A stretch of DNA of 64,000 nucleotides from an uncultured Carboxylicivirga sp. (GTDB lineage Bacteria > Bacteroidota > Bacteroidia > Bacteroidales > Marinilabiliaceae): contig CANLLN010000009.1 of the NCBI GenBank assembly GCA_947491945.1, positions 62,001-126,000 on the forward strand. The letters run 5' to 3'. The translations under genes were made by a program, and so were the position numbers. The notes below the pieces were generated by a model. It did no database searches and had not been told where the DNA came from. It worked only from the letters and a program-made list of their open reading frames with translations. Below, one piece after another: positions 22,090 through 37,526 of this stretch. Within the stretch, counting starts at the first letter, position 1; the number at the start of each line of letters is the position of its first letter.

Positions 22090-22173
22090 AAGGTTTGGTT
22101 TAAATATTTGGTACTGTTATCAAGCCGTAAAAATAAGTGACTAAGAATAGGTAGAGTTGAACAAATGTTGCGT

Positions 22174-22227
22174 TTGGATGAATGGATAAATAATTCAGAT
22201 TAAAATGGAACAAAAATTGGATGAATG
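22174..22227. repeat. Direct repeat in rteC upstream region
   Basis: TTGGATGAATG occurs at 22174-22184 and again at 22217-22227, 43 bases apart, in the divergent region between rteC and the HTH gene. It may be a regulator-binding pair. Confidence 0.5.
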
Positions 22228-22228
22228 A

Positions 22229-22248
22229 TACTTATCTACTGATAAGTA
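22229..22248. promoter_or_regulatory. Palindromic operator candidate, rteC/HTH intergenic
   Basis: TACTTATC-TACT-GATAAGTA: perfect 8-bp arms, 4-base spacer, directly after the second direct repeat. It fits a dimeric DNA-binding protein site. Confidence 0.5.
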
Positions 22249-22294
22249 GTGCGCAAGCAATTGAACTATTGTATCATTTTGAATAAAAATTTTA

Positions 22295-22347
22295 TCCCAA
22301 GTTGGGAACAGGTTGGTAATTTTATTCAAAACTCCTTCTGAACTTAG
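22295..22347 (+). promoter_or_regulatory. Operator-promoter block, copy 1 (upstream of HTH/helicase-loader genes)
   Basis: A 13-bp palindrome TCCCAA-G-TTGGGA (22295-22307) is followed by GGTTG, the shared ATTTTATTCAAA and GAACTTAG (22340-22347). The same order and spacing recur at 25140-25192, with GAACTT(A/T)G exactly 39 bases from the palindrome centre in both. A common repressor or activator site over a shared promoter is the simplest reading. Confidence 0.65.
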
Positions 22348-22378
22348 CTGCATTCATTTTCAACCAAATTAAATTGCT

Positions 22379-22714
22379 ATGACACTAAAATCAGAACAAG
22401 AAATGAGTTATGAACATGCGCGGATGTATCGTAATCAGATTGTGACCATCGGTGACCTGAAAGATTTCAAAGAAGATTTATTGCAACAACTGAGCAAGGT
22501 GGTGGCCGAAAATCTAAAACCCACTAAAAAATGGATGAAAAGTGCCGAAGTCAGGAAGCTATTGAGTGTTTCACCAGGCACGCTTCAAGGTATGCGTGAT
22601 AGGGGTGAGCTATCCTATACCAAGGTAGGTGGTATTATCTTTTATGAGGTCAAAGACATCCAAAAAATGATTAGCAAAAACAAAGTATCTGCCATCACAC
22701 GCTTTGCCCAATGA
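22379..22714 (+). CDS. Small helix-turn-helix protein (excisionase/MerR-like fold)
   Basis: 111 residues. The C-terminal half (about 54-102) is a winged HTH of the excisionase/HTH_17 type: WMKSAEVRKLLSVSPGTLQ, then MRDRGELSYTKVGGIIFYEV. The N-terminal half is helical. Such proteins are regulators or recombination directionality factors in Bacteroidota ICEs. Its stop overlaps the start of the next gene by four bases, so the two are translationally coupled. It lies behind operator-promoter copy 1 and could be the protein that binds it. Confidence 0.8.
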   Translation: MTLKSEQEMSYEHARMYRNQIVTIGDLKDFKEDLLQQLSKVVAENLKPTKKWMKSAEVRKLLSVSPGTLQGMRDRGELSYTKVGGIIFYEVKDIQKMISKNKVSAITRFAQ

Positions 22715-23550
22715 ACTACATCCGGCACCTGAACCATGTATTGGAAAGCTTTATAGAGGATGAGCGCATTATACCCCGTCATGTCAGGATGTATATGGCG
22801 CTGTTTTTCCTGTGGAATAAACTGAAGTTCCCGGAAATCATTCATATTGTGCGGAGTGAATTGATGCTCTTATCCAAACTTGGCTCCATGAAATTCTACC
22901 ATTTAACCTTGCGGGAACTGCATGAATGGGGCTATATCGATTACCGGCCATCCAAGAGTTGTTACAGATGTTCAGGTGTTAAAATGCACACATGTTTCAA
23001 TAGTGATACAAGTAGTGATACAAGTACTGACACATCCGGTGAAACAACAACTGCATGTTCCACTGCTACAAGCACTGAAACAAGCAGTGCACCATCTAGT
23101 GCTACGAGCAGTAGTACAAGCAGTGGAACAACTAGTGAAGCCATTAATATAAACAGTAATAAAACAATTATAAACCATACAAACAGTAAAGAAACAATAG
23201 AAAACAAGAGTGAGCACGCACGCGATGCTCACCCCACCCACATTCAAAATGAAGAGAGCTCTTTGGATAAAAAAGACGAAGCTAGGCCCAAGGGTTTTCA
23301 AAAGCCCACATTGCACGAGTTACAAGATTATTTTGAAGACAGGGAAGCCCCGACTGCAGAAGCTCAGCGCTTTTTGAACCATTTTGAATCCAACGGCTGG
23401 AAAGTCGGCGGTAAGAGCCCCATGAAAGACTGGAAAGCAGCAGTGCGTAACTGGATACTCAACATGCAAAAATATCAGAGAGGAAAAGCAGAACACGAGC
23501 AAAACCCCTTATCGACCTTAAATGACAAAGACTATGGCGAGCCCCTCTAA
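22711..23550 (+). CDS. Replication protein: winged helix, Ser/Thr repeat linker, DnaD-like C-terminus
   Basis: 279 residues in three parts. About 1-80 look like a winged-helix replication initiator domain. Residues 98-141 are eleven tetrapeptides of S-x-T-S type. About 195-255 match the C-terminal tail of DnaD/phage replisome organisers (RFLNHFESNGWKVGGK, MKDWKAAVRNW), which contacts a helicase loader or single-stranded DNA. The next gene, overlapping by up to 29 bases, is a DnaC-like ATPase, the expected partner. Together they suggest that the ICE loads its own replicative helicase. Family membership is by motif only. Confidence 0.65.
   Translation: MNYIRHLNHVLESFIEDERIIPRHVRMYMALFFLWNKLKFPEIIHIVRSELMLLSKLGSMKFYHLTLRELHEWGYIDYRPSKSCYRCSGVKMHTCFNSDTSSDTSTDTSGETTTACSTATSTETSSAPSSATSSSTSSGTTSEAININSNKTIINHTNSKETIENKSEHARDAHPTHIQNEESSLDKKDEARPKGFQKPTLHELQDYFEDREAPTAEAQRFLNHFESNGWKVGGKSPMKDWKAAVRNWILNMQKYQRGKAEHEQNPLSTLNDKDYGEPL
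23002..23133 (+). repeat. 12-bp minisatellite coding for S-x-T-S repeats
   Basis: Eleven imperfect 12-base units of the form AGTGNTACAAGC in frame with the replication protein, coding for SDTS, SDTS, TDTS, GETT, TACS, TATS, TETS, SAPS, SATS, SSTS and SGTT. Unit number may vary between strains by slippage without shifting the frame. Confidence 0.85.
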
Positions 23551-24199
23551 TAGCATTCGATGGCAAAAAGATGGCTGGATACACTACAGCTTTAATGCCT
23601 CACTGGCCTGGATAGAAGCCGCTGGCAAGAAACGTTATGGCGAGCATTTTAAGTTGCAGAAAAAAGACCATGCCATCATTTACAAGCTACTGGTCTATGC
23701 CATTGGCGACAAGGAAAACATGCAAAAGCAAGGCTTGCATCCTGATAAGGGAATCTTGGTGTCAGGGCCTGTGGGCTGCGGAAAAACAAGTTTGATGCAC
23801 TTAGTGAATTACTTTTTCCCGCTTGAGAAACGCTTTACCATCCTATCAGCGCGGCAGCTGACCTTTAGCTTTGTGCGTCAAGGTTACCAGGTCTTGCACA
23901 AATACAGCAGTGGTTCCTACCAGTTTCGATGCAGTGGCTACCATCCCAAAACCTACTGCTTTGATGATATCGGCATCGAACGTCCGGTGCACTACTTTGG
24001 CAATGAATGCAATGTAATGGCTGAAATACTATTGAGTCGTTACGACCATTTTATCCATAAAAAGATGATGACTCACCTGACCACCAATCTCTCGGCCTCT
24101 GAGTTGGAAGGTTTATACGGCAACCGCCTAAGAAGCCGCATGCGTGAGATGTTTAACCTGGTGAGTTTCGACCGTGCATCGGGTGATAAACGGCAGTAG
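23522..24199 (+). CDS. DnaC/IstB-like AAA+ ATPase, probable helicase loader
   Basis: 225 residues. Walker A is GPVGCGKT (82-89), Walker B CFDDIG (146-151), a sensor-1 segment THLTTNLS, and an arginine-finger region YGNRLRSRMREMFN near the end. This is the DnaC/IstB-type loader layout. Two starts are possible, 23522 and 23534; both overlap the preceding gene, so coupling is likely. With the DnaD-like protein it forms a replication module of the element. Confidence 0.82.
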   Translation: MTKTMASPSNSIRWQKDGWIHYSFNASLAWIEAAGKKRYGEHFKLQKKDHAIIYKLLVYAIGDKENMQKQGLHPDKGILVSGPVGCGKTSLMHLVNYFFPLEKRFTILSARQLTFSFVRQGYQVLHKYSSGSYQFRCSGYHPKTYCFDDIGIERPVHYFGNECNVMAEILLSRYDHFIHKKMMTHLTTNLSASELEGLYGNRLRSRMREMFNLVSFDRASGDKRQ

Positions 24200-24231
24200 A
24201 AAAACTCAATAATACTTACTATTTTTGCCCC

Positions 24232-24540
24232 ATGAATGAAGCGAGCGATGATATTAGTGGGATAGTCAAACAGCATATACAGGCCATAGACCTGAAGGCT
24301 GAGGTCATCCTTTTATTTCCTCAGGGCAAGAGTCACAAAGAAGAGATACAAATTTATGTACTGACACCTCAAAAGGTGGATTTTGAAACCGAGCAAAAGT
24401 ATCTTAAAGCCTGCTATCAGGTAGAGTTAGCCTCAAAACTGAACCTATCCATTTACATCTACTTCAAAGAAAAGTGGCACCAACAACTATCGGGAACACC
24501 CATTTACCGAAAGGTCAGTAGTGAGGGCATCCTTTTATAA
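24232..24540 (+). CDS. Degenerate nucleotidyltransferase-like small protein
   Basis: 102 residues. The order of segments follows small MNT-type nucleotidyltransferase proteins of Bacteroidota: an AEVILLF strand, an IQIYVL strand where D-x-D is expected, a KWHQQLSGTPIYRKV segment and an SEGILL end. The catalytic Gly-Ser pair after the first strand and the two metal-binding aspartates are missing (PQGKS and IQI instead). It is probably not an active transferase. Role in the ICE unknown. Confidence 0.5.
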   Translation: MNEASDDISGIVKQHIQAIDLKAEVILLFPQGKSHKEEIQIYVLTPQKVDFETEQKYLKACYQVELASKLNLSIYIYFKEKWHQQLSGTPIYRKVSSEGILL

Positions 24541-24679
24541 GGGCACTTCCCCGGGCCCATTGGGAAAGACAGAATGAAAGTAGGTAAGTAAATAGTGAGA
24601 GCCTTTTAGCCACCATTCCCCAAAGCGCCCTGACGCAAAGGCCTCCCCATTATAGGCCTAATCGTTTCATCGGCTCGCT

Positions 24680-24755
24680 TAGCCTGCCTTAAACCCGCAA
24701 TATTTATTATAAACTTGATTACGCATTGCGGGTTTAACCCATCCTAACCAGGCTA
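24680..24755. repeat. Nested inverted repeat
   Basis: Outer arms TAGCCTG (24680-24686) and CAGGCTA (24749-24755); inner perfect 13-bp arms TTAAACCCGCAAT (24689-24701) and ATTGCGGGTTTAA (24725-24737), loop of 23 bases. The inner stem is strong enough to fold in RNA or single-stranded DNA. Confidence 0.8.
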
Positions 24756-24824
24756 TGCTCGCCTTTTCAACAACCAGGCCTGTTTCGTAAGCTATTTATC
24801 AGTGATGCCCTTTTTTAAGCCATT

Positions 24825-25110
24825 GCATTAGATATCGCGCCCGCAAAGGTGTGACGGGAGGTGTGATGTGCAAAAGCGATTTTTATGCAGAAAAATTGAT
24901 GCGCATGCTTTGTATCAAGCGGGTGAAACACAGGTGTATTTCCATAGGTTTTCAAGTCAAATATCAATGGTTTTCTTTAATTGCAGAAATACACCTAAGT
25001 TTCCCACCTCAAGCGGTTATGCCCATCAATTTTTGCTTTCTGCAAAGAATTTCCTTTTGCAAATGACACCAATCCCTATTCATAAAGTGGCTTACGCGAT
25101 ATCAAAATGC
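24825..25110. repeat. 286-bp imperfect inverted repeat
   Basis: The left arm 24825-24942 reappears, reversed and diverged, as 24986-25110, around a 43-base centre. Perfectly paired blocks from outside in: GATATCGCG/CGCGATATC, GGTGT/ACACC, TGCAAAAG/CTTTTGCA, AAAATTGATG/CATCAATTTT, AGGTGTATTTC/GAAATACACCT. No transposase or terminal duplication is visible. Confidence 0.8.
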
Positions 25111-25139
25111 CCCATACCATATCATTTGAAAAGAATTTA

Positions 25140-25192
25140 TACCAAGTTGGGAACAGGTTGTGTATTTTATTCAAAGAGGGGTTGGAACTTTG
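25140..25192 (+). promoter_or_regulatory. Operator-promoter block, copy 2 (upstream of tra operon)
   Basis: TACCAA-G-TTGGGA (25140-25152, one arm mismatch relative to copy 1), then GGTTG, ATTTTATTCAAA and GAACTTTG (25185-25192) at the same 39-base offset as at 22295. It lies about 65 bases before the first tra-region gene. Confidence 0.65.
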
Positions 25193-25255
25193 TCATGTTC
25201 ATTTTCTGAAAGCAGAATAGAGCCGTTAACACATTGTTTCATTAACACAAAACCC

Positions 25256-25639
25256 ATGTTCGGATTAGAAACGATTAGCCATTGGCAATTTATCAAAGCC
25301 ATCGCCTTGTGTCTGGCCGGTTACTACATCATTTTACTGCTGTACCTGACTTTGAAAAAAGTGAATGAGTCACAGACCAGCAGTTTTGAAGCCGAAGCAC
25401 TACAAGCCAATAAGGCGGGTTTCGATAGAACAGAAGAACCAAGTACCAAATCAATCAGAGCCAGCGATTATCCCTCTGTAGCCACCAGCTATGTGGAGCA
25501 GGATGAGCAAGACCTGAGAGTCACCATGAACCAGGAGCCGGACTACAGCGGTTATGCTCTGGATGCCATCCAAAATACCCAGATGGCCGATAAAGACGCC
25601 TTCTTGAATAACATCGAATACGAACTGCAGCACAGCTGA
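25256..25639 (+). CDS. ICE membrane protein at head of tra operon
   Basis: 127 residues: one transmembrane helix (about 10-33, FIKAIALCLAGYYIILLLYL) and a charged, soluble, probably disordered remainder. I start at the ATG at 25256; the frame is open upstream without a signal. In position it corresponds to TraD or a similar small protein ahead of TraE in CTnDOT-type elements, but I see no motif that proves that. Confidence 0.6.
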   Translation: MFGLETISHWQFIKAIALCLAGYYIILLLYLTLKKVNESQTSSFEAEALQANKAGFDRTEEPSTKSIRASDYPSVATSYVEQDEQDLRVTMNQEPDYSGYALDAIQNTQMADKDAFLNNIEYELQHS

Positions 25640-25678
25640 TTTCTAAACACACAAATACTCATTAAATACCATTGCACC

Positions 25679-25987
25679 ATGAAACGACAAAACATTCTTA
25701 GAAGAAGCTTACTAATTTTATTTTTGCTAGCACTGCCCATCAGCACCTTATTGGCGCAATCGGCACAAGGCATCGATCAGGCCACCTCCGAAGTGCAATC
25801 CTACGTAGACCCCATTGCCAATCTGATTATAGCCATTGGCGCCGTGGTGGGACTCATCGGTGGTATTCGCGTCTACATCAAATGGCAGAGTGGCGATCAG
25901 GATACCCAGAAAGCCTTGATGGGTTGGTTTGGAGCCTGTCTCTTTCTCATTTTGGTAGGAGTTGTAATCCGGGCATTTTTCGGTTAA
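25679..25987 (+). CDS. traE: TraE-like conjugation protein (DUF4134, VirB2-type pilin)
   Basis: 102 residues: signal peptide ending at LLAQ (about 27), then two transmembrane helices (about 46-63 and 82-100). Size and pattern are those of DUF4134/TraE, the presumed VirB2-like subunit in Bacteroidota conjugation systems. It is followed four bases later by traF. Confidence 0.85.
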   Translation: MKRQNILRRSLLILFLLALPISTLLAQSAQGIDQATSEVQSYVDPIANLIIAIGAVVGLIGGIRVYIKWQSGDQDTQKALMGWFGACLFLILVGVVIRAFFG

Positions 25988-25991
25988 AAAT

Positions 25992-26312
25992 ATGAAGGGC
26001 CAACAAATGTATCGCATCAGCAAGGTAGATACCCGCATCTATGTCAAAGGCTTTAGTGGCGTACTTGTGTACAAAGCCATGTATGCCATCTTAATGGCGC
26101 TTGGTGTCTTTGTAGGGCTCTACCTGCTGACCAGCCCTTTTGTCGCCCTTTTAGTAGTGATGCCAGTACTAATGATGGTACTGTATCGACTCAGTAAAAT
26201 ACAACAAACCCTTGGGCCGGAAGGCTTCCAAAAGCAACAAAGTGCAAAGAAGCTGCCCCATTTTATCAGCATCAAACAAGAGCTCAGTCAATTTATCAAT
26301 CTTAAAAGCTAA
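25992..26312 (+). CDS. traF: TraF-like conjugation protein (DUF4133, VirB3-type)
   Basis: 106 residues with a paired transmembrane hairpin (about 28-65) preceded by YRISKVDTRIYVKGFSG, typical of DUF4133. VirB3-like proteins associate with the VirB4 ATPase, encoded five bases downstream. Confidence 0.85.
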   Translation: MKGQQMYRISKVDTRIYVKGFSGVLVYKAMYAILMALGVFVGLYLLTSPFVALLVVMPVLMMVLYRLSKIQQTLGPEGFQKQQSAKKLPHFISIKQELSQFINLKS

Positions 26313-26317
26313 GCACC

Positions 26318-28708
26318 ATGAAAGTCAAAAGTATCACAGACACCTTGCCTGTACTCGGTTTCGATGGCGATATCCTCTTATCCAATAATCTGGATATGAC
26401 CATTGGCTTGCAGCTTCAGTTGCCTGAGCTGCTGGCTTGCAGTGAAGAGGCGCTGGAACGAATGCACGATACCTTTCGACGACTTATTGCCATGCTGCCG
26501 GCCGGTACGCTCTTACACCGTCAGGATTATTTTATTGAAAAGACCTTCCAAAATCAGGAAGCGCAAGCTTCTTTTTTAAGCCAATCCTACCTGAAGCATT
26601 TTACAGGCAGAAGTTACCTGCAACATGAGGCCTATTTGTTTATCTCCCTTATGAACACCGGACTCTTGAAAAGCTACCTGTGTTCCAGCCTGATTCAGCC
26701 GACTAATACCAAGAAAAAGTCCCATCATCAAGCAGACAAGCTGGAAGAAGTGCGGGACAATGTGATAGCACAACTCAAACAAGCGGGTATTCCAAGTCGG
26801 GTGCTCAAGGCAGAGCAACTGACCAACTTGATGCAAAACTACCTGAGCATGGAGTTTCAGAACGAGCCATCGATGCTGGGTAATCTGGATTTTCGTGATC
26901 ATCTGAAAGTGATGAATCATTTTGTGGAGTGCTACAGTTTGAGCGACTACAATCATGTACCCTCAGAAGTTAGTTTTTCATCGACTCATGCCGGTACTAA
27001 GCTACCTGTTTCCATGATATACCCCATTGCTTTTGGACTGCCATTTTCGCACATCACCAACTGCTTTATCTACAAAGGCCATCAGAATATCTTAAAAACC
27101 CAGTTGGAGCAGGCACACAAGAAAATCTACTCCCTGAGTAAATTTTCAACTGAGAACAAGCTTAATGCAGAACTCATCAGCCGATTTTTGGAAGACGTGC
27201 AGCAAGGAGGTGAACCCATCGTGCAGCTACATGCCAACCTGATGCTCTTTGATGAGTCACTGCAAGGCTTAAAGCGCAAACGCAGTGAAGCCAGCACTGC
27301 CTTTTCACAGATGAACTGTTTGCCTTACCGTCATAGCTTTGACCTGCCCCTGATGTATTGGGCAGCCATGCCGGGTAGTACGCAACTACCCGAAACGGAG
27401 TTGATGTTGATGCAAAGCGCAGAAGCCTGCTGCTTTCTGAACTTTGAAGGCGCCATCCAAAGCAGTGATTCACCTTTTTATATGCATTTTTCTGACCGGC
27501 AAAGTGGCTGTCCGGTCCGGGTTGATATCTCGGATGAGCCCATGGCGAAACACCAGATTCATAACCGCAATAAATTGATTATTGGTGGTTCCGGCTCGGG
27601 CAAATCCTTTTTGACCAATCACCTGATGCGCCATTATGCCGAGAGTGACAACTGCCATGTGGTATTGCTGGATGTGGGCCGTAGCTATGAACTGTTGGTG
27701 CACTATCTGAATGACCACCTCAAGGATAAAGGTGGAGCCATGCATGTGGAGTTTACCGAAGAGACCCCCATCTCTTTTAATCCTTTTGTGCTGACCGATG
27801 GCTTGAGCACCGAACGCAAGCAAACCATCTTATCTGTTTTGTACACCATCTACAAACCCAACTTGTCGGAGATTGATAAGGACGTGATTGCCCAATCACT
27901 GACCGCTTATTATAAAAAGCATAGCAACAAGCATAGTTTTAACAGCTATTATGAGTTTGTACAAAGGTGGATACCCCAGTTGGTGAAGGACAAAGGTCTG
28001 ATGTTTAACTGTGGTGAGTTCTTTTTTATCCTGAGTAAATACTACCGGGGAGGCGAATACGATTACCTTTTGAATAAACAGATGCAGACCGATGAATTTT
28101 TCCGCTGTCCTTTTATTGTGTTTGAGCTGGATAACATCAAAGACCATCCCGTGATTTTCCCGGTGGCCACCCTGATTATCATCGATATCTTTATGCAGAA
28201 GATGCGCCGGCTGAAAGGCACCCGTAAAGTTATCTGCATTGAAGAAGCCTGGAAAGCCATTGCCACACCCCAGATGGCCGATTACATCAAGTACTTTTTC
28301 AAGACCATCCGTAAGTTTTTTGGTGAAGCCCTGGTGGTGACTCAGGAGATAGAAGATGTGTTATCCAGTCCTATCATCAAAGACGCCATTATCAACAATG
28401 CCGATACCAAAATCTTGTTGGACATGCGTAAGTTTGCCAATAAGTTTGAGACCATCAGCCAGGTGCTGGGATTAAGCCCCTTTCAGAAAGAGCAAATATT
28501 GTCGGTCAATAATAACCTGCCGACCAAACGCAAACTCAAAGAATGCTTTATTGGGCTAGGTACCTATTCCCGGGTATTTGCTGTGGAAGTGAGCCGGGAG
28601 GAATACTATTGCTATACCTCTGAAGAAAAGGAGAAAGAGCACATCAAGGAACAACTGCAATACTACGACAGCTTTATAGAGTTTCTGCAAAGCTATTCAA
28701 GCCCCTAA
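26318..28708 (+). CDS. traG: TraG, VirB4-family conjugation ATPase
   Basis: 796-residue cytoplasmic ATPase that powers assembly of the mating apparatus. Walker A is GGSGSGKS (423-430) and Walker B VICIEEA (638-644). Residues 1-400 form the VirB4 N-terminal domain. The length agrees with TraG of CTnDOT-type systems. The stop codon sits in the loop of a small hairpin (AGCCCC 28700-28705 / GGGGCT 28715-28720), which may reduce read-through into traI. Confidence 0.93.
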   Translation: MKVKSITDTLPVLGFDGDILLSNNLDMTIGLQLQLPELLACSEEALERMHDTFRRLIAMLPAGTLLHRQDYFIEKTFQNQEAQASFLSQSYLKHFTGRSYLQHEAYLFISLMNTGLLKSYLCSSLIQPTNTKKKSHHQADKLEEVRDNVIAQLKQAGIPSRVLKAEQLTNLMQNYLSMEFQNEPSMLGNLDFRDHLKVMNHFVECYSLSDYNHVPSEVSFSSTHAGTKLPVSMIYPIAFGLPFSHITNCFIYKGHQNILKTQLEQAHKKIYSLSKFSTENKLNAELISRFLEDVQQGGEPIVQLHANLMLFDESLQGLKRKRSEASTAFSQMNCLPYRHSFDLPLMYWAAMPGSTQLPETELMLMQSAEACCFLNFEGAIQSSDSPFYMHFSDRQSGCPVRVDISDEPMAKHQIHNRNKLIIGGSGSGKSFLTNHLMRHYAESDNCHVVLLDVGRSYELLVHYLNDHLKDKGGAMHVEFTEETPISFNPFVLTDGLSTERKQTILSVLYTIYKPNLSEIDKDVIAQSLTAYYKKHSNKHSFNSYYEFVQRWIPQLVKDKGLMFNCGEFFFILSKYYRGGEYDYLLNKQMQTDEFFRCPFIVFELDNIKDHPVIFPVATLIIIDIFMQKMRRLKGTRKVICIEEAWKAIATPQMADYIKYFFKTIRKFFGEALVVTQEIEDVLSSPIIKDAIINNADTKILLDMRKFANKFETISQVLGLSPFQKEQILSVNNNLPTKRKLKECFIGLGTYSRVFAVEVSREEYYCYTSEEKEKEHIKEQLQYYDSFIEFLQSYSSP

Positions 28709-28725
28709 GACAATGGGGCTTCAGG

Positions 28726-28756
28726 AAAACTCTGCGCCTCTCAGTCTCTGTGTTTA
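28726..28756 (+). repeat. Dispersed CTCTGCG-type intergenic repeat, copy 1
   Basis: ACTCTGCGCCTCTCAGTCTC followed by TGTGTTTA, between traG and traI. It is closely related to 31249-31283. Sequences of this kind are scattered between genes in some Bacteroidota genomes. Confidence 0.5.
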
Positions 28757-28787
28757 ATCTATTTATCAACGAAATAAATCATTCACC

Positions 28788-29441
28788 ATGAAAATCATCC
28801 ACACCTTTATTCTATCAACCACCTTATTGTTATTAGCCAATCAACACCTAAGTGCTCAGGCACCTGTTACGGATGTAGGGGCAGGTATTCAACGCGAAGC
28901 CCTCTGGACACAGGAAAAGGGTATCCTGAGCAAGATGAATTGGTATAACCTGCTAATCAAAGCTCTGAATGGCGATATAAAAGGATTGACCGGGGAGCTA
29001 TTGGGCATCGACCAACAACTGCTGGATGCAGTGGAGAACGTCTCCGGCCTTATAAAAGACTACAAGCGTATACAGGAAACGCGGCAGATGCTCAGCAAGA
29101 TATTGGATATCTACACCGATAAAGTGCCCATGTTGATAAGGGACAACAACTTTACACCCCAGCAAGCGGCAGCCATCCTGCAGGCTTTCGATATCATTCT
29201 GACCGACAGCCGTGACCTGGTCACCGAAGTGCTGAATACCATCACCATCGACAAAGCCTTTATAATGGATGATAAAGCGCGCTATGATGTGATAAACGGC
29301 ATCTACCGACAGGTACATCGTCACTATGGTACCATCTGCTACCTCTACAATAAAATCCTCTATGCCTCTTATATGAAGAGCTACCAACTAGGGGACCTCA
29401 AGACCTTCGCCTTTTACTACAGCCTGTATGAAACCAATTAA
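28788..29441 (+). CDS. traI: TraI-like conjugation protein (DUF4141, VirB5/TrbJ-type)
   Basis: 217 residues with a signal peptide ending near HLSAQ (about 23), then largely helical. The segment ISGLIKDYKRIQETRQMLSK-like block and periodic helices fit the TrbJ/VirB5-type secreted protein family placed after TraG in CTnDOT-type operons. It probably acts in the periplasm or on the pilus. Confidence 0.75.
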   Translation: MKIIHTFILSTTLLLLANQHLSAQAPVTDVGAGIQREALWTQEKGILSKMNWYNLLIKALNGDIKGLTGELLGIDQQLLDAVENVSGLIKDYKRIQETRQMLSKILDIYTDKVPMLIRDNNFTPQQAAAILQAFDIILTDSRDLVTEVLNTITIDKAFIMDDKARYDVINGIYRQVHRHYGTICYLYNKILYASYMKSYQLGDLKTFAFYYSLYETN

Positions 29442-29451
29442 ATTATCAGTT

Positions 29452-30171
29452 ATGAGAATAAGGAATATAATCACGCTATTAATACTTCTATTAGTCATAT
29501 GCGCAAGCCTCACTGAAGCTCAAAGTGCTTTTGCCATAAAGAAGTGGAAAGGCCGTTATCCACGTATGAACAACGACTACCCTGTGTCCTTTGTTTGTTG
29601 GAAAGGCTGGCTACCACCCGTACCACACTTTTTTGTACGTATCTACCCAACGCACTATTACTACTATCTGAATTCATTACCGGTTTATGATGCCAAGAGC
29701 TATTTAAATATGGGGCTTTATGATGGGCTTAAACTGGTGCTAAAAAACATTGATAAAGAAGCTCTTCAAAAATCCATGGAAGAGGTGAGTGGCATCCAAG
29801 TAAATCAGCTCATTCATCAAGGCATAGAGGATGTCTTGCGACAAAGTCGACTAACTGCCTTACCCGATATCTATCAAACAAGTGCTGTTTTCTACGAGGC
29901 CATTCAAGCATTGGATGGACTTAAACAAGCTAATGTTTCGGAAGACATCACTGAAGGCTTTGAACGAGATATTCAGAATTATCTGGAAGAATTGCTGTTA
30001 ATTAATCAGCTGGATGCTGAACAAGGGGGTAAAGTACAAGCCATGGCAGACATTAATCAGTCCCTTCGACAACTCACGGGCACCATTCATTATACAGCAC
30101 ATAAAATCGCGAGTTATCAACAGCAGAGTCAGCCATGGACTTCTAGTCTAAGTTTCTTAGGCAGTTTATAA
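29452..30171 (+). CDS. Secreted protein of unknown function inside the tra operon
   Basis: 239 residues. Started at the ATG at 29452 because it gives a clean signal peptide, MRIRNIITLLILLLVICASL, ending at TEAQ; the frame is open to 29428, overlapping traI. The mature part begins with an aromatic, proline-rich region (about 40-75) and continues as helices. The helical half loosely resembles TraI-type proteins. It has no counterpart I know in CTnDOT between TraI and TraJ. Confidence 0.65.
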   Translation: MRIRNIITLLILLLVICASLTEAQSAFAIKKWKGRYPRMNNDYPVSFVCWKGWLPPVPHFFVRIYPTHYYYYLNSLPVYDAKSYLNMGLYDGLKLVLKNIDKEALQKSMEEVSGIQVNQLIHQGIEDVLRQSRLTALPDIYQTSAVFYEAIQALDGLKQANVSEDITEGFERDIQNYLEELLLINQLDAEQGGKVQAMADINQSLRQLTGTIHYTAHKIASYQQQSQPWTSSLSFLGSL

Positions 30172-30232
30172 TATCCTAAATGCTGCTGAAAAAGGCCATC
30201 TCAATAGCAAGTAAACTAAAAACACCAGCACC

Positions 30233-31168
30233 ATGAATATTGAAAACTTCTTTGAATTCACCGATAGTCTGATACAAATAGGCATTGACCATGCGCGCTT
30301 GTTGGTGGATATGGCCAGAGCCATAGGCGGCATAGCGGCCTTTTTGTATATCGCCAAGCGCATCTTTGAGCAGCTGATAGCTGACAACCCCATTATGATA
30401 CTACCGCTCTTAAGGCCTTTTGCCCTTGTACTGGTCATCACCTTCTGGGGTGCTTTTATTCAGGTTCTGTTAGTGCCTACGCAAGGGCTGACGAACCTTT
30501 CGGAAGAAATATACAGCGGGCAGCAGCCACTGGTGAGTGAAAAACTGCAGGAGAAGCAAAGGGCCATCCTGATGACCGACCTGCCACTTTTTATGGAAAA
30601 CGAAGAGAAAGAAGCCGACCTCTGGGATAAAGGCATCAACGTGCTGCTCACCACCTATAACATTGTGAGTGGACGTGCCCTGAGAAACCAAATCAGTTAT
30701 TACATCATGGAAGGGTTGCGGCAGGTCACCGAAGTTGCCTTTGAAGTGGTGGTCTACCTCATTGCCTTTTTGCGCACCATCTTCTGTGTGCTCTTGGTCA
30801 TTTTTGGCCCTTTGGTGTTTGCAGTATCCATCTTTGATGGTTTTCAGGATAGCTACCTGCAGTGGATAGCCCGTTTTATCAATGTGAACCTTTATCTGCC
30901 CATTGCCTTAATCATCCTGTCCTTGACACAGCACCTGCTTATCTACGTGCTGGACTTTGAAATTAACCTGATTAATTCCATGGGCATGTACCAGTCTTCC
31001 CTCTTTTTTGTGTCTGGCCTCATTGTGCCGGTATGTGGTATCTGTGGGCTGGTGATGGTACCTAAAATTGCTACCTGGGTGGTTAATGCTTCAGGCACCA
31101 ACACAGGAGGTGGACGAATGCTTCGCACCGCCGCCATGATGGCCGTCTCCAAAGGTGCGCTAAAGTAG
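30233..31168 (+). CDS. traJ: TraJ, VirB6-like inner-membrane conjugation protein
   Basis: 311 residues with about six transmembrane helices: two early (about 28-48, 55-80) and a block at 165-275. A signature-like ending, GLIVPVCGICGLVMVPKIAT, leads into a Gly-rich basic tail. Position after the TraI-like genes and topology match TraJ. Confidence 0.88.
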   Translation: MNIENFFEFTDSLIQIGIDHARLLVDMARAIGGIAAFLYIAKRIFEQLIADNPIMILPLLRPFALVLVITFWGAFIQVLLVPTQGLTNLSEEIYSGQQPLVSEKLQEKQRAILMTDLPLFMENEEKEADLWDKGINVLLTTYNIVSGRALRNQISYYIMEGLRQVTEVAFEVVVYLIAFLRTIFCVLLVIFGPLVFAVSIFDGFQDSYLQWIARFINVNLYLPIALIILSLTQHLLIYVLDFEINLINSMGMYQSSLFFVSGLIVPVCGICGLVMVPKIATWVVNASGTNTGGGRMLRTAAMMAVSKGALK

Positions 31169-31248
31169 GGGCGAGGCGCCCCGGCCAATCATTGATTTAC
31201 ATGATGGGAAAAGGGAGTGTAAAACCTGGAGAAATGCTCATAAGGAAT

Positions 31249-31283
31249 AAAAACCTCTGCGTCTCAGTGTCTCTGCGTTCAAA
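31249..31283 (+). repeat. Dispersed CTCTGCG-type intergenic repeat, copy 2
   Basis: AACCTCTGCGTCTCAGTGTC then TCTGCGTTCAAA, between traJ and traK. The following 40 bases contain several TCTAA words, and the rest of the 156-base gap shows nothing else. Confidence 0.5.
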
Positions 31284-31324
31284 CTTCTAAATGTCTAATA
31301 TCTAAGAATCTATTAATCTAAAAG

Positions 31325-31951
31325 ATGAAACAACTCATCCATATCCAACGCCAGTTTCGTTACACTGTTTATGTACTGCTGGTGACCACCATCCTGTCCA
31401 TCGGGGCAGGTATTTATACTTATGTGACATCACTGCAATTGGTGAAGCAGTCGCGCCAGAAAATCTATGTATTGGATAACGGGCAATCCCTCTTACTGGC
31501 ATTGAGAGCAGATATCTCAGAGAACCGCTCGGCAGAAGCCCGTCATCATGTCAAGCGCTTTCATGAGCTGTTCTTTACCCTGGAGCCGGACAAGGCCTAT
31601 ATCGAAAGCAACATTCGGGAAGCTCTTTATCTGGCAGATAAAAGTGCCATGAAGCAGTATCGCACCTTCAAGGAGAATAACCTGTATAACCGGGTGATAG
31701 CCTCAGATATCAGCATGACCCTGCAGAGCGACTCTGTGACAGTGGATTTCTCCACCTATCCCTATCGCTTTAAGTATTACGGCAAGCAGAAGATCGTGCG
31801 TAAATCCAATACCACCATCCGTCAATTGATATGCAGGGGACAGCTTCGAAACATCTCCAGGACCGATAACAATACCCATGGCTTTTTAATCGAAGGCTGG
31901 GTGATTGAAGATAACAGTGACTTGCAAACCACCAGACGAGCTAATTTTTAA
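31325..31951 (+). CDS. traK: TraK, VirB8-like conjugation protein
   Basis: 208 residues: short cytoplasmic start, one transmembrane helix (about 14-35), periplasmic domain. The motifs SLLLALRADISENRSAEARHHVKRFHELFF and FSTYPYRFKYYGKQKIVRKS are hallmarks of TraK proteins in Bacteroidota ICEs. Inner-membrane scaffold of the secretion channel. Confidence 0.9.
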   Translation: MKQLIHIQRQFRYTVYVLLVTTILSIGAGIYTYVTSLQLVKQSRQKIYVLDNGQSLLLALRADISENRSAEARHHVKRFHELFFTLEPDKAYIESNIREALYLADKSAMKQYRTFKENNLYNRVIASDISMTLQSDSVTVDFSTYPYRFKYYGKQKIVRKSNTTIRQLICRGQLRNISRTDNNTHGFLIEGWVIEDNSDLQTTRRANF

Positions 31952-31973
31952 GAATAACCATAAAGAAAATACC

Positions 31974-32285
31974 ATGAAGACTGATATTAAGCATAAGGTA
32001 AAACGCCTGATTCAAAAAGTAGACCAGCAGGATAAAGGCCTCAGTCAGCATAGGCGGAAAGTCAAATGGATAGCCATTCTGGGCACACTCTTTACGCTCT
32101 ACCTGCTGTCGTTTATGAAATCCCACTTACGGATGGCGCATCAAGTAATGAAGATAACTGGGAAAAGCATAGTAAGTGATTCGCTAGAAGTCGATAGCAC
32201 ACAATTATCTAACAGCCCTTATTCCATGCCTGTCGATTCCTTTGAACAACTATTAAACCAACACATCCATGAAAACGCAGATTAA
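31974..32285 (+). CDS. traL: TraL-like small membrane protein
   Basis: 103 residues with a basic N-terminus and one transmembrane helix (about 33-52), in the TraL position between TraK and TraM. The start at 31974 gives a standard-size protein; earlier in-frame codons overlap traK. The stop overlaps the traM start by 17 bases. Confidence 0.75.
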   Translation: MKTDIKHKVKRLIQKVDQQDKGLSQHRRKVKWIAILGTLFTLYLLSFMKSHLRMAHQVMKITGKSIVSDSLEVDSTQLSNSPYSMPVDSFEQLLNQHIHENAD

Positions 32286-33426
32286 AACAAACAAAGCACT
32301 CTTTATCCTGCCGCTGGGACTCTTGCCCTTTGTCGTGCTGATATTCTATATTCTGGGCGGTGCGAGTGGACAGAACAAGCAAACAACTCCTAATGATAAT
32401 GGCGGTGCCAACTATCAGCTGCCTGATGCCAATCGTAACATTGCCATAATGGATAAGCAGGAAGCGTATGAGCAGATATCAGCTGAAGAACCACAAAAGC
32501 CTGTCAAGCTAAATATTGACACCACACAGGTATTAACGCCATTGGAAGTAACGGAAAAGGTGCCAGCAGTGAATGTGAATGAAGTCTTGCTGGCTCATGT
32601 GAAAAGACAAGAACAATTATCCAGACAAGCTCTGCAAAATCAAACGCAAGGCATCCATCAAAAGAGGGAAGAATCATTAAGTGAGGCAACTAAAACGCAT
32701 TCTCAAATATCAGGCAACTCAGTAAGACGTCAAGTAAGAAAACAAACCATTAAGAGAACATCACCCTCAAAAGTGAGCATGGGTGATGGTTCAAGCATTG
32801 AGTTGGAAGAATTAACTGAGCTGGTAGATGCACATGAACGACTGATGCAGCAAAACGATTCCTTAAGTCGGCAACTGCATCAGGCCCAAATCATCGTGAA
32901 TCAGCAATCTCAAAAACAAACTTTTTTTGAAGTCCAAATCTTATCCAGCGGTGGTTTTGAACCAAGAGAATTGCTAAGCTCCAGTATCAAAGCACAAGTG
33001 GTAGAAGACAGCAAAGTGCTAAGCGGAAACCGGGTGATGCTGCGCCTCTTAAACGATACATACATCAATGGGAAAATCATCCCTACAGGCACTTTGATTT
33101 ATGGCCTTTGCAAAACAGATAATGAACGACTGCAGCTATTGGTTTGCAGTGTGCCTTATCAGGATGAATTTTTGCCAGTCAGTTTAAGTGCCTATGACCT
33201 GGATGGTATTCGTGGCCTTTATGTCCCGGATAATGTCAATCTCAGAGTTTACAAAGACGTCGCTGGAGATGTCAATCCATCCATTTTGATGACGCCATCG
33301 GATAATCCCTTGTCTTATATGGGTGTCAGTGCTGCGGCGGACCTGAGTAAGACCATGATTAAACGCGTCAAACTAAAGCGTGTCTACCTCCGGAAAAATA
33401 CTGTGCTGATTCTAAAAAATGATTAA
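32269..33426 (+). CDS. traM: TraM, VirB10-like conjugation protein
   Basis: 385 residues: one transmembrane helix (about 11-31), a long low-complexity periplasmic linker rich in Gln and Lys (about 35-215), then a C-terminal domain (about 220-385) with the TraM pattern NRVMLRLLNDTYINGKIIP, GTLIYGLC and DLDGIRGLYVP. VirB10-type proteins bridge inner and outer membrane. Confidence 0.92.
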   Translation: MKTQIKTNKALFILPLGLLPFVVLIFYILGGASGQNKQTTPNDNGGANYQLPDANRNIAIMDKQEAYEQISAEEPQKPVKLNIDTTQVLTPLEVTEKVPAVNVNEVLLAHVKRQEQLSRQALQNQTQGIHQKREESLSEATKTHSQISGNSVRRQVRKQTIKRTSPSKVSMGDGSSIELEELTELVDAHERLMQQNDSLSRQLHQAQIIVNQQSQKQTFFEVQILSSGGFEPRELLSSSIKAQVVEDSKVLSGNRVMLRLLNDTYINGKIIPTGTLIYGLCKTDNERLQLLVCSVPYQDEFLPVSLSAYDLDGIRGLYVPDNVNLRVYKDVAGDVNPSILMTPSDNPLSYMGVSAAADLSKTMIKRVKLKRVYLRKNTVLILKND

Positions 33427-33446
33427 TCCTATTAAAAACTACAACA

Positions 33447-34247
33447 ATGAAAACGCCGATTATTACAATACTGCTACTGTCCCTATTTATCAGCCTAAAG
33501 GCCCAAAATCACATTCAGGTAGCTGAACACTCAACGGTTCATCTACTATGTCCGGTAGCGGTGAGTTATGTGCAAGTAGGCAGTCATGCCAAACTAATGG
33601 CTGAGCCAGTTCCTGACTATCCACATGTGCTGCGCATTAAAGCCGTTGAAACATTTGCAGATAGTACTTCACTAACGCTTGTGTGCGGCAATCAATTGTA
33701 TGCTTTTCAAGTCAGTTACAACAGTCAGTGCCCTTTGCAGCTTAAACTCTATGACTTTAAAGGGGAGGGACTAAAAGAACAGCCCAATACCAACATGCCC
33801 TTGCATCAACTGTTGGCCTGCATGCACCAGCTACAGATTCAACAAGCAAGTAATAGGCCAATTCAAAGCCTTAAAAAGCACCGTATTGAACTATCCTTGG
33901 ATGATATACGCGTTCGACAGGGTTTGCTCTTTGTCAGGCTCACCATTTTTAACCACTCCAATCTGATTTATAATACAGAGGTCCCAAGCCTATTGATGCG
34001 TGATAAAAAGCCTAAGAAGGCGGCCAATGTGCAGGAATATGGCATCGAGCCTATCCGTACATCATCATCCGAACTAAGCATTCAACCGCAGAAAACACAA
34101 ACGCTGGTATTGGTATTTAAAAGCTTCTCCATTCCCAAACACAAAGAGGTGGAAATAAGCCTGCGGGAGCAAGTGTCTGGGTTTACCGGCCGTGACCTTA
34201 GTCTTAGGTTTGGACGAAAAGCCATTGATAAAGCCAAGGCACTTTGA
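33447..34247 (+). CDS. traN: TraN, VirB9-like conjugation protein
   Basis: 266 residues with a signal peptide ending at LKAQ (20). Two beta-rich domains: DSTSLTLVCGNQLYAFQV in the N-terminal half and LFVRLTIFNHSNLIYNTEV in the C-terminal half, as in TraN proteins. Outer-membrane-associated part of the channel. It is the last mating-pair gene seen; traO, traP and traQ are not present. Confidence 0.88.
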   Translation: MKTPIITILLLSLFISLKAQNHIQVAEHSTVHLLCPVAVSYVQVGSHAKLMAEPVPDYPHVLRIKAVETFADSTSLTLVCGNQLYAFQVSYNSQCPLQLKLYDFKGEGLKEQPNTNMPLHQLLACMHQLQIQQASNRPIQSLKKHRIELSLDDIRVRQGLLFVRLTIFNHSNLIYNTEVPSLLMRDKKPKKAANVQEYGIEPIRTSSSELSIQPQKTQTLVLVFKSFSIPKHKEVEISLREQVSGFTGRDLSLRFGRKAIDKAKAL

Positions 34248-34311
34248 TGAGTCAGGCATGACAGCCATAAATACCCAAATTAAACAGTAATCTAAAAACA
34301 GAACAAACACC

Positions 34312-36231
34312 ATGTCACAAACAGAAGGAAACCAACTGATTCGCCTGCATGAAGCCTTTCGCTTTATCAGCTACTTCTTGCTCTTGCTGTCTTTTTACCT
34401 GACCTGCATGGACTTTTTTGTGGCACAGGACTTCTATTTAGTGGGTTTGGAGTTTGTATTCACAAGGTTGATGCAACTGACCTTTCTCTCAGAAATTATT
34501 CCATCCAAACTATTAACCCTGGGCATGTTGCTAATTACCTGCATGGGCACCAAAGCACAGAAAGAACCGGAGCTCAAAGTAGCGACCATTGTTTTACAGA
34601 TTCTATCCGGCTTAAGCATTTATTGGGGGAGTCTGTACTTTTTACCGGACTACGTATTGGCTTACCTATTGACTTCCCTCATCGCTTTTGTGATGGTGAA
34701 TGTGGGCTTTGATAATGTGAGCAAGCTTATTAGTGTCAACCTGATGAAAGACCGCTTTAATACTGGCAACGAAAGCTTTTGGCAGGATGAAGCGCTTAGA
34801 AGTAACGACTACTCCGTAAACCTACAAAGTGAGTATATCTACAACGACAAACGTCGTCAGGGCTGGATCAATGTGGTCAATCCCTTTCGTGCCAGCATGG
34901 TGATTGGGACGCCCGGCTCCGGTAAATCATTTGGCGTGGTACAGCCTTTTATCTCGCAACACCTTCGAAAAGGTTTTTCCATGTGCGTCTATGACTTTAA
35001 ATACCCTGATTTATCAGCCTTGGCCTATACGCAATACCAACGAGGCAGAGTCAATGGTCTATTGCCGGTACACACGCAGTTTTGTGTGATCAACCTGGAT
35101 GATATCACCAAGAGTCTGCGTTGCAACCCACTGGCGCCAGAACTGATGGATAGCCCCATTGATGCCTTCGAAGCTTCAAGAACTGTTCTGTATAACCTGA
35201 ACCGAGAGTGGATACGCAAACAAGGGGAGTTCTTTTCCGAGTCAGCAGTGACCTTCTTTGCCGCTGTTATCTGGTTTTTAAAACGCTATGAAGAAGGGAA
35301 GTTCTGCACCTTGCCCCATGCCATTGAACTTTTGCAACTGGATTATGATGACCTCTTTGAAATCATGGCCACCGAGCAGGATGTGGTGAATATCATCAAC
35401 CCTTTTATCAATGCTCATCAACGAGGAGCCAGTGAACAGTTGGAAGGCCAGTTGGGCAGTCTGAAGATCGCCATCTCAAAAATCATCACCCCAGAAATTT
35501 ACTGGATATGTTCAGGTAATGATTTTACTCTGGATATTAATAATCCCGATTCACCCAAGGTGCTCTGCCTGGCCAATAACCCTTTGCGCATTGAAATCTA
35601 TGGAGCCGTGCTGTCCCTGTTTATCACGCGCATGCTGAAAATCATCAATAAGAAAGGGCAACGGCCTTCTTCTCTTATTTTTGATGAGCTACCTACCATT
35701 TACTTTAGAGGTTTGGATACCTTGATAGCCACCGCACGGAGCAATAAGATATCAACTCTTCTGGGTATCCAAACCATTGACCAATTGGTGCGGGATTACG
35801 GCAAAGAAGCGGCCAATGCCATCCTGACCAATATAGGCAATGTGTTTTCCGGTCAGGCCACAGGTGATACAGCCCGATACATCCAAAGCCGTATGGGGAA
35901 AGTGTTGCAAGAACGCCAATCGGTGAGTATCAACCGGGCTACTCAGTCATCCACCATCTCCACCCAAATGGACTACCTGGTGCCGGAAGGCAAGATAGCT
36001 ACACTGCCACAAGGTTATATGGTGGGGCAGGTAGCCGATAGTTTTGAACAGCCCATCCCCAAAAAAAGCTTTAACGCACTTATTAAACCAAGTCTTATCA
36101 ATACTCAAAAAGAACTAAGTATGCCCGACTACTACCACTTTGATGATAAAGAGCAAGTGATGGAAGGGAACCGACTGCGCATCCACAATGACATCCAGGA
36201 AATCTGTCAGCAGCGGATGCGACCGAGCTAA
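34312..36231 (+). CDS. mobC: Type IV coupling protein (MobC/TraG-VirD4 family)
   Basis: 639 residues. Four transmembrane helices in the first 135 residues anchor a hexameric ATPase that brings the relaxase-DNA complex to the channel. Walker A is GTPGSGKS (199-206) and Walker B SLIFDELPTIYF around residue 455; the family segment SNKISTLLGIQTIDQLVRDYG follows. In CTnDOT nomenclature this is MobC. Confidence 0.93.
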   Translation: MSQTEGNQLIRLHEAFRFISYFLLLLSFYLTCMDFFVAQDFYLVGLEFVFTRLMQLTFLSEIIPSKLLTLGMLLITCMGTKAQKEPELKVATIVLQILSGLSIYWGSLYFLPDYVLAYLLTSLIAFVMVNVGFDNVSKLISVNLMKDRFNTGNESFWQDEALRSNDYSVNLQSEYIYNDKRRQGWINVVNPFRASMVIGTPGSGKSFGVVQPFISQHLRKGFSMCVYDFKYPDLSALAYTQYQRGRVNGLLPVHTQFCVINLDDITKSLRCNPLAPELMDSPIDAFEASRTVLYNLNREWIRKQGEFFSESAVTFFAAVIWFLKRYEEGKFCTLPHAIELLQLDYDDLFEIMATEQDVVNIINPFINAHQRGASEQLEGQLGSLKIAISKIITPEIYWICSGNDFTLDINNPDSPKVLCLANNPLRIEIYGAVLSLFITRMLKIINKKGQRPSSLIFDELPTIYFRGLDTLIATARSNKISTLLGIQTIDQLVRDYGKEAANAILTNIGNVFSGQATGDTARYIQSRMGKVLQERQSVSINRATQSSTISTQMDYLVPEGKIATLPQGYMVGQVADSFEQPIPKKSFNALIKPSLINTQKELSMPDYYHFDDKEQVMEGNRLRIHNDIQEICQQRMRPS

Positions 36232-36263
36232 AAAAGACAATTATTAACCCCTTAAATATAGAA

Positions 36264-36947
36264 ATGATGGAACAAAAAACACGTTATGGACTCAATGAAG
36301 TGCCCCTGGAGAAACTCGAAAAAATGGGCATCAAACGCGACTTTGTCGATAAGATGGAGAAGAAAGAACTGACCGACTTCCTGAATGGTTTTCGCTCCCA
36401 GAAGCTGTACACGGTCAGTGCAAAGATTAACGATGAGAACTACCGCATTCCGGCTAAGATTCGTCTTCAAAAGGAAGAGGGCGAGATGAAGGTACGCATT
36501 CATCCCATTCAACGATTACACATCCCGGATAGCTTTATGGGGCATGCATTCTCCAAAGAAGAAAAAGCGGCCTTGCTGCAGGATAAAAACATTGGCAAAG
36601 CCATCGAGCTGCAGGATTTTAATGGCAAGAAGGATAAGTATTACATCGGCATCGATGCCAAGACCCATGAGATTATTCCGCTGAAGCAAAAGAATATCCA
36701 GGTGGCCGATAAAATCAAGGGTGTTACTCTGACAGATGCTCAGAAAGAAAAGTTATCCAACGGGGAGAAAGTGCAACTCAAAGGCATGACCGGACGCAAT
36801 GATAAGAAATTCTCAGCAACACTTCAGATTAACCCGGCTGAGCGTAACATAGGTTTTAGCAATTTCAAACAGGAGAAAGCGGCGACTCAGAAGCAAGAAA
36901 AATCCGAAACACAGAAGCAAGGAAAAATTGCCAAAGTGGGTGGCTGA
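36264..36947 (+). CDS. DUF3945/DUF4099-type mobile-element protein
   Basis: 227 residues. It opens with the DUF4099 pattern NEVPLEKLEKMGIKRDFVDK and continues with a DUF3945-like module (about 90-195) containing GHAFSKEEKAALLQDKNIGK and GVTLTDAQKEKLSNGEKVQ. The tail is Lys/Gln-rich. Such proteins are common on Bacteroidota ICEs; the function is not known. Here it sits between coupling protein and relaxosome genes. A start at 36267 is equally possible. Confidence 0.85.
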   Translation: MMEQKTRYGLNEVPLEKLEKMGIKRDFVDKMEKKELTDFLNGFRSQKLYTVSAKINDENYRIPAKIRLQKEEGEMKVRIHPIQRLHIPDSFMGHAFSKEEKAALLQDKNIGKAIELQDFNGKKDKYYIGIDAKTHEIIPLKQKNIQVADKIKGVTLTDAQKEKLSNGEKVQLKGMTGRNDKKFSATLQINPAERNIGFSNFKQEKAATQKQEKSETQKQGKIAKVGG

Positions 36948-37004: not shown

Positions 37005-37140
37005 AATGCTGATTCTCTCTGAAAAGAGAATTAAGAAATGACTCTTACGAAGTGGATGCAAGATGTGTTTTTTAGTGCCTAAAAAACGAAAGTACTTGCC
37101 CGGTGGGACTAAAATAAAACAGAGCTAAAAATTAAGAAAT
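37005..37140. other. Candidate origin of transfer
   Basis: Noncoding stretch directly upstream of the relaxosome genes. It has dyads ATTCTCT/AGAGAAT (around 37012-37031) and a perfect TTTTTTAG (37068-37075) / CTAAAAAA (37079-37086) with a 3-base loop, followed by ACTTGCCCGGTGGGACT (37094-37110). An inverted repeat followed at short distance by a conserved single-strand region is the usual layout of oriT with nic, but the nick site cannot be proved here. Confidence 0.45.
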
Positions 37141-37148
37141 TATTATTG

Positions 37149-37526
37149 ATGGCACACAAAAAATCCAAGGAGCAGCGACGCACGATTCAGTTTAAGATAC
37201 ACCTAACTACAACGGAAAAGAAACAGATTCTAGAAAGCGTCAATCAGGAGAAATACAACTCCATCAGTGATTATGCCCGTGAACGCCTTTTGAAAAAACG
37301 CTTGGCAAAACGGATTACTGTCAGTGATGATTACATCCGGATATTTAAAACGATGGATTATAACCTGACGAAGATAGGCACCAATCTCAATCAGATAGCT
37401 CATAAGCTCAATGCGTACAATACCTATGTATTAACTGAAGATGACCAGCAAACCTTCAAAGCGTGTTTTGAGCAATTGAAAAGTTGCTATCAGGTTTTGG
37501 GAGAGCACCTTCGAAAAATCAAATAA
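37149..37526 (+). CDS. mobA: MobA-like relaxosome accessory protein (MobC-Pfam family)
   Basis: 125 residues. An N-terminal ribbon-helix-helix-like domain (RRTIQFKIHLTTTEKKQIL, SISDYARERLL) is followed by the family's NLTKIGTNLNQIAHKLNA motif. These proteins bind oriT and assist the relaxase encoded next. I start at the ATG 37149; a TTG one codon earlier is less likely. Confidence 0.85.
   Translation: MAHKKSKEQRRTIQFKIHLTTTEKKQILESVNQEKYNSISDYARERLLKKRLAKRITVSDDYIRIFKTMDYNLTKIGTNLNQIAHKLNAYNTYVLTEDDQQTFKACFEQLKSCYQVLGEHLRKIK

Follow-up and report, generated by a model that had tools for sequence, protein, structure and literature searches.

A conserved hairpin of Bacteroidota mobile elements as a candidate single-stranded DNA promoter

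The locus described here raises the question of what a long hairpin does between a helicase-loader module and the tra operon of an ICE. The window, i.e., the whole 64,000-nt stretch of DNA from an uncultured Carboxylicivirga sp. that was analyzed, was compared with related elements in the genus and the class, and the results make it fairly probable that the hairpin is a Frpo/ssi-like promoter for single-stranded DNA that suits the RNA polymerase of Bacteroidota.

The hairpin and its mobile elements

To the left of the hairpin lies the HTH-p5-loader-p7 module (22379-24540), and to its right the tra operon, whose first ATG is at 25256. The ICE to which both belong carries an integrase gene next to tRNA-Pro as well as an RteC gene, and it encodes Tra proteins of the Bacteroidota type, a NikA-like protein, and a MobA/VirD2-like relaxase. 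No end of the ICE was revealed in the window when direct repeats (at least 16 nt) of the tRNA end were sought. The main parts of the element and the base of the hairpin are as follows:

22379..24540, top strand: HTH gene, p5, AAA/DnaC-like loader, and p7, a module that ICEs and several mobilizable elements have to the left of the hairpin; the domain matches of the loader fall short of the Pfam cutoff
24825..25112, bottom strand: hairpin, proposed from folds and 33 family hairpins to act as folded bottom (transferred) strand
24831..24839, bottom strand: left side of the base stem, GATATCGCG, pairing with 25095-25103; group W has a different sequence (CATGC/GCATG)
25256..36947, top strand: tra operon, opening with a gene that starts at ATG 25256 and continuing with TraE- to TraN-like genes and a coupling protein of the MobC type
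37054..37099, bottom strand: oriT core (GGATGCAAGATGTG, inverted repeat, CTTGC), with a bottom-strand nick proposed at a predicted position between 37059 and 37058
37146..37526, top strand: NikA/MobC-like relaxosome protein
37531..38964, top strand: relaxase (MobA/VirD2-like; PF03432 82.5 bits, cutoff 24.6)

Folding confirmed the imperfect inverted repeat with a 43-nt centre that had been reported in the preliminary description, the arms pairing inward from 24825/25112, with seven further pairs outside these positions in the RNA fold. Three nested arm pairs were resolved by repeat search (24828-24839/25095-25106, 24891-24906/25019-25034, and 24925-24942/24986-25003), the last with 43 nt between its arms. 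Folding as both RNA and single-stranded DNA, which the same description had proposed as a check, placed the hairpin far below shuffled sequences: as RNA it reached -103.4 kcal/mol versus -74.3 (sd 4.7) for 100 shuffles (z -6.17), and as single-stranded DNA the z-scores were -5.43 for the top and -5.33 for the bottom strand, the observed energy being reached by no shuffle in any of these comparisons. One listed ORF overlaps the hairpin (24868-25209, 113 aa, GTG start, no Pfam match).

Several features nearby were recorded separately. A 59-bp stretch right of the hairpin (25120-25175) recurs with 85% identity at 22272-22330 upstream of the HTH operon and is probably a duplex regulatory site common to both places; no second hairpin was found before the HTH operon, where 22080-22380 folds at z -1.37. 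A separate inverted repeat with 23-nt arms (24679-24747), part of which recurs many times in other Carboxylicivirga genomes, may represent a dispersed palindromic repeat or a terminator. The product of p7 (24232-24540), which is conserved beside the hairpin, has a predicted fold weakly like that of MNT nucleotidyltransferases (best E 4e-3).

By DNA comparison, the same genome has one more whole copy of the hairpin, and copies were also identified in four other genomes. Nine copies were used to build a covariance model, which was run over 71 genomes of the family and had matches in 10 of them, all belonging to Carboxylicivirga (14 genomes of this genus were in the set). After removal of reverse-strand matches to the same hairpins, 33 hairpins were obtained for the genus, five of them in this genome, in which the best other copy is 72% identical and the remaining three were detected whole only by the covariance model. 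Sixteen of the 33 were weak (29-54 bits) but had the CAAAAG/CTTTTGC stem and the GTGGCTTA(A/C)GC strand, and GCAAAAG/CTTTTGC is nearly invariant throughout, its left arm being altered in L036 and L134. When plasmids were searched with the window hairpin, no matches were found.

Consensus folds were calculated for three sequence groups (9, 15, and 10 rows, with L030 in two groups). The CAAAAG/CTTTTG stem and the inner stems are common to all three, and the outer base stem is present in two, the consensus of group M having no outer stems. Within groups, RNAalifold covariation was weak or absent (terms -1.64, +1.31, and -0.3), and four weak hairpins of group W had z-scores above -1.2 (20 shuffles). 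The arm sequences differ among the three groups, and 32 of the 33 left arms (60 nt outside the anchor stem) folded better with their own right arm than with the mean of the right arms of other groups, L147 being the exception. Such compensatory change between groups, for which the preliminary description had suggested looking, is strong evidence that the arms are kept.

The contexts of these hairpins in the genus, called by matches to ICE proteins within 6 kb, comprise ICEs, mobilizable elements, and islands without a recognized relaxase. Copies in other ICEs thus exist, their absence, together with that of compensatory changes, having been named in the preliminary description as grounds for dropping its proposal. 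The hairpin precedes a tra operon in the window, L030, L032, and L140, as well as in L144, whose contig stops inside the first gene. Four loci (L138, L139, L141, and L143) combine it with all or part of the HTH-p5-loader-p7 module, an oriT-like stretch, and an integrase gene at a tRNA, without tra genes, and further hairpins adjoin oriT and mob genes. In the islands L029, L033, L034, and L035, the only recognized parts are the hairpin, oriT, and integrase; apart from the integrase gene and the tRNA or attachment side, all that they have in common with the ICE is the hairpin and the oriT-like stretch immediately upstream of the NikA-like gene. It was at first considered that tRNA, integrase, oriT, and hairpin formed a complete element of only 2 kb. 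This reading was dropped, because the genes left of the island hairpins were found at 95-100% identity only where the genome also has the hairpin in the same position (3 of 14 genomes in one case, 2 of 14 in the other), two further genomes giving a 71% match to the first set of these genes; the loci are probably cargo islands. A repeat of the tRNA end was represented by a single 13-nt AT-rich match in one of nine loci, and a wider look at two loci revealed none. The tRNA-Arg islands L029, L034, and L035 carry genes matching GH2 glycoside hydrolases (Pfam scan in L029) beside the hairpin, oriT, and integrase, and are nearly identical in three species. In L131 (1262-2306), a single oriT lies between two hairpins of different groups, which possibly reflects the fusion of two elements.

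Patterns of the core stem led first to five matches in a genome from a different family and then across the class, Bacteroidia. With one mismatch allowed, TTTATTCCGNTTCCTTTTGC was found at 34 places in 27 of 395 class genomes, versus five for the reversed control pattern, several of the matches not being hairpins; an exact left-arm 19-mer occurred at 16 places in 12 of 395 phylum genomes, its control giving none. After matches without a matching partner had been dropped, 44 loci yielded 30 distinct two-armed hairpins. Two of them lie in an IMG/VR contig (L176) with a terminase-like gene, judged by eye; one class-wide hairpin searched against phages gave no matches, and the matches of one to 47 plasmids (40 of Xanthomonas) are probably due to chance, the best places listed sharing one 53-nt piece. 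Seven loci (L207, L208, L209, L214, L216, L219, and L220) adjoin a DUF6943-like gene, which may be the marker of a mobile element (Pfam scan in L209 and L176 only). Flavo-1 RNA matches lie left of the hairpin on the opposite strand in L176 (2439-2520) and L201 (1193-1260), one above and one below the gathering score.

Promoter boxes, transferred strand, and neighboring genes

The bottom strand of the hairpin carries sequences resembling a Bacteroidota promoter, and the features concerned are as follows:

24844..24851, bottom strand: -7 box CACCTTTG, which differs from TAnnTTTG by one base and lies in an internal loop; P(paired) 0.22
24871..24876, bottom strand: -33 box CTTTTG, 19 nt from the -7 box, in duplex with 25054-25059; P(paired) 0.99
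25054..25060, top strand: CTTTTGC, right-arm partner of the -33 box, nearly invariant among the 33 genus hairpins
25087..25097, top strand: conserved right-arm strand GTGGCTTACGC, opposite the -7 box (template side)
25097..25255, top strand: predicted start (about 25097) and leader of a rightward RNA templated by the bottom strand, placed from the box positions

The sigma-ABfr consensus is TAnnTTTG/TTTG (PMC7366714), and the -7 box of the window has the form CAnnTTTG. In the left arm, TTTG-N17-21-[TC]AnnTTTG was present on the bottom strand of 26 of the 33 genus hairpins and on the top strand of none. A -7 box 17-21 nt from the anchor stem was found in 27 hairpins and was missing in six, versus a shuffle mean of 0.14 and maximum of 2 (counts that treat related hairpins as independent); 11 of these 27 boxes are strict TAnnTTTG (shuffle mean 0.06), and L036 has the -7 box at this spacing but an altered -33 box. 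Among the class-wide hairpins, the same spacing occurs in 7 of 30 (shuffle mean 0.26), the other 23 having the box elsewhere or lacking it. When the bottom strand was folded, the -33 box was more paired than the -7 box in all 27 hairpins (mean P(paired) 0.98 versus 0.39), with P(paired) of the -7 box varying from 0.22 to 0.70 and two values above 0.65. Because recognition of the -7 box by sigma takes place on the non-template strand, only the bottom-strand hairpin presents the consensus properly; sigma geometry was also used in placing the start at about 25097.

An oriT-like core, ATGCAAGATGTG-TTTTTnAGTACCTnAAAAA-...-CTTGC, was aligned in 19 elements, and the bottom strand of GGATGCAAGATGTG reads CACATCTTGCATCC, which resembles MOBP nick regions. 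The strict core was present in the examined stretch for 23 of the 33 hairpins (22 distinct oriT copies), always in the same orientation as the hairpin (23 of 23), to its right in 21 cases and on the other side in two, and at a distance of 46-961 bp in 20; for the other ten, the strict core was not in the examined stretch, L034 having one by BLAST. Relaxase genes typically lie in the lagging region (PMC11541004), and the relaxase gene of the window is right of oriT, suggesting that the leading region extends to the left and that the bottom strand would be the transferred one. Transfer of the top strand was considered from the order of inverted repeat and CTTGC and would put the hairpin at the trailing end, in the manner of an sso that precedes a dso. 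This reading was given up because both boxes are on the bottom strand only, because ORFs are found on the right, and because relaxase genes typically belong to the lagging region. The main oddity of the window hairpin under the single-stranded DNA promoter reading is its distance of 11.9 kb from the oriT core (37054-37099), which, rather than the hairpin, is adjoined by the relaxase genes; the hairpin would therefore enter late.

In duplex DNA the sigma-ABfr-like boxes point left, whereas most neighboring ORFs start on the right. ORFs of at least 100 aa starting within 300 nt of the hairpin numbered 12 on the right and one on the left in the genus (n=33), and 18 and four, respectively, in the class-wide set (n=30); these are mechanical ORFs, some apparently spurious, and several loci are related to each other. 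A Pfam scan of the first right-hand genes at 15 of the 30 class-wide loci gave SSB, ParB, DUF932, and RadC in three cases each, DUF1281 and DUF6943 in one each, and none in one, so that SSB, ParB, DUF932, DUF1281, or RadC is the first right-hand gene of 13 of 30 hairpins (oriT mapping covered the genus elements). ParB, DUF932, DUF1281, and RadC genes are known from leading regions. The same has been described for ssb (PMC9849209, PMC11541004). A leftward duplex promoter and rightward ORFs can be reconciled if the hairpin acts in the transferred bottom strand: once this strand is folded, the template leads out of the hairpin base to the right, and promoter and genes agree.

The proposed sequence of events is that the bottom strand would fold when the element enters a recipient, with the -33 box of its 3' arm held double-stranded and the -7 box placed in an internal loop, an arrangement that would imitate an opened promoter. 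Host RNA polymerase with sigma-ABfr would begin near 25097 and copy the transferred strand rightward, and the resulting RNA could prime synthesis of the complementary strand. Priming would be the sole evident use in islands whose right side has, as far as recognized, only oriT and a convergent integrase, and an early-mRNA role might be added where genes lie there, such as the tra operon in the window and ssb, parB, DUF932, or radC genes in other elements. In the window, the hairpin would thus serve the tra operon, second-strand priming, or both.

Competing explanations

A single-strand initiation site working without RNA polymerase, at which the hairpin would load primosome proteins (the loader and p5 of the element, or host factors) comparable to a PAS or RSF1010-type ssi, seems rather unlikely. 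The HTH-p5-loader-p7 module lies directly left of the hairpin in ICEs and several mobilizable elements, and p5, which has a poor predicted structure model and no family match, has conserved C-terminal columns reminiscent of DnaD-type replisome organizers. However, in islands no such module was recognized up to 6 kb from the hairpin, and the promoter boxes and rightward ORFs would be left unexplained.

Similarly doubtful is a structured top-strand RNA, either a tra leader or a 6S-like RNA trapping RNA polymerase. The long stems around an internal loop are like those of 6S RNA and the compensatory change fits an RNA too, but Rfam, including its 6S models, gave no matches in 22000-27000 (E<=5) or in hairpins of 14 class-wide loci (E<=1). 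In addition, a scan restricted to the sigma-ABfr type detected no TTTG-TAnnTTTG promoter within 120 nt left of any of the 33 hairpins (shuffle mean 0.31), and TAnnTTTG alone was likewise found there in 0 of 33, versus a shuffle mean of 4.0. In islands in which the hairpin is followed by oriT and a convergent integrase, it is also not evident what a leader would act on. The functions offered in the preliminary description are affected differently by these results: a single-strand origin or second transfer-related structure pointed in the right direction, as the hairpin recurs beside oriT in otherwise different elements, whereas a long structured RNA is made less probable by the lack of a sigma-ABfr-type promoter on the left. 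A double-strand origin received no support from this indirect evidence.

It is very unlikely that the hairpin is a second relaxosome site, a transfer-termination site, or part of an extended oriT. Its proximity to the oriT core in 20 of 23 cases would suit such a role, but the separation in the window ICE and the class-wide copies preceding SSB, ParB, or DUF932 genes (the oriT search being confined to the genus) argue against it. An ordinary duplex promoter firing leftward, with incidental arms, would account for near-consensus boxes pointing left and is even so highly improbable, given the compensatory change that keeps the arms and the scarcity of left-hand ORF starts (1 of 33 and 4 of 30 in genus and class). 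An inserted MITE, named in the preliminary description among the findings that would overturn its proposal, or a decayed element is hardly credible despite several copies per genome, because the copies have diverged widely and hold to a single orientation relative to oriT, the other ones in this genome sitting in mobile contexts of their own.

A wider family and its known counterparts

Beyond the single locus, we tentatively propose, as a possibility somewhat weaker than the promoter reading itself, a class-wide family of Bacteroidota single-stranded DNA promoters defined by the core stem CAAAAG-ACT-ACGGCATAAA ... TTTATTCCG-TTTCCTTTTG and sigma-ABfr boxes, which would be an exchangeable module of ICEs, mobilizable elements, relaxase-less islands, and perhaps phages, with att sites, oriT, and promoter as the cis set that a parasitic island requires. 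The finding provides a defined sequence with a proposed strand and start site, and the hairpin would mark leading regions in this phylum, a major one of gut and marine habitats. The islands without recognized transfer genes offer a natural dissection: they retain oriT and hairpin, suggesting that a start site on single-stranded DNA may be as much a requirement for mobility as oriT.

Starts of RNA polymerase on single strands are known mainly from E. coli plasmids, and the hairpin is most likely a Bacteroidota counterpart. A literature search found no paper on Frpo or single-stranded DNA promoters in Bacteroidota and, among titles and the beginnings of abstracts, none on how Bacteroidota elements, once a single strand has entered, begin to make the second strand or to express early genes from it. 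Frpo is described as a stem-loop in which -10/-35 boxes are rebuilt and which lies upstream of ssb and other leading genes (PMC9849209, PMC11541004). A 2024 survey (PMC11541004) screened for Frpo/ssi sequences already known and for boxes of the E. coli consensus; no word in its main text begins with 'bacteroid'. The Frpo/ssi of F, ColIb-P9, and relatives share with the present hairpin a long stem-loop of the transferred strand (here, the predicted one) that rebuilds promoter boxes, in part of the class-wide copies a position upstream of genes such as ssb, and the presence of more than one copy in some elements. They differ in having TTGACA/TATAAT instead of Bacteroidota -33/-7 boxes and in their conserved core, and the hairpin occurs in ICEs, mobilizable elements, and islands, preceding the tra operon in the window ICE.

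The sso of rolling-circle plasmids and ICEBs1 is folded single-stranded DNA where host RNA polymerase primes the second strand, its signals including RNA polymerase-binding and CS-6-type ones. The hairpin would resemble it in the priming function, as judged by description, whereas many hairpin copies have ORFs downstream. With 6S RNA it would share the mimicry of an open promoter, but it has no Rfam match, no sigma-ABfr-type top-strand promoter was seen, and its orientation to oriT is fixed. SXT-mobilized MGIs have an integrase and an ICE-like oriT with no recognized relaxase (PMC5704250); the Carboxylicivirga islands are built in the same way, but also possess the hairpin, a second cis element of the ICE.
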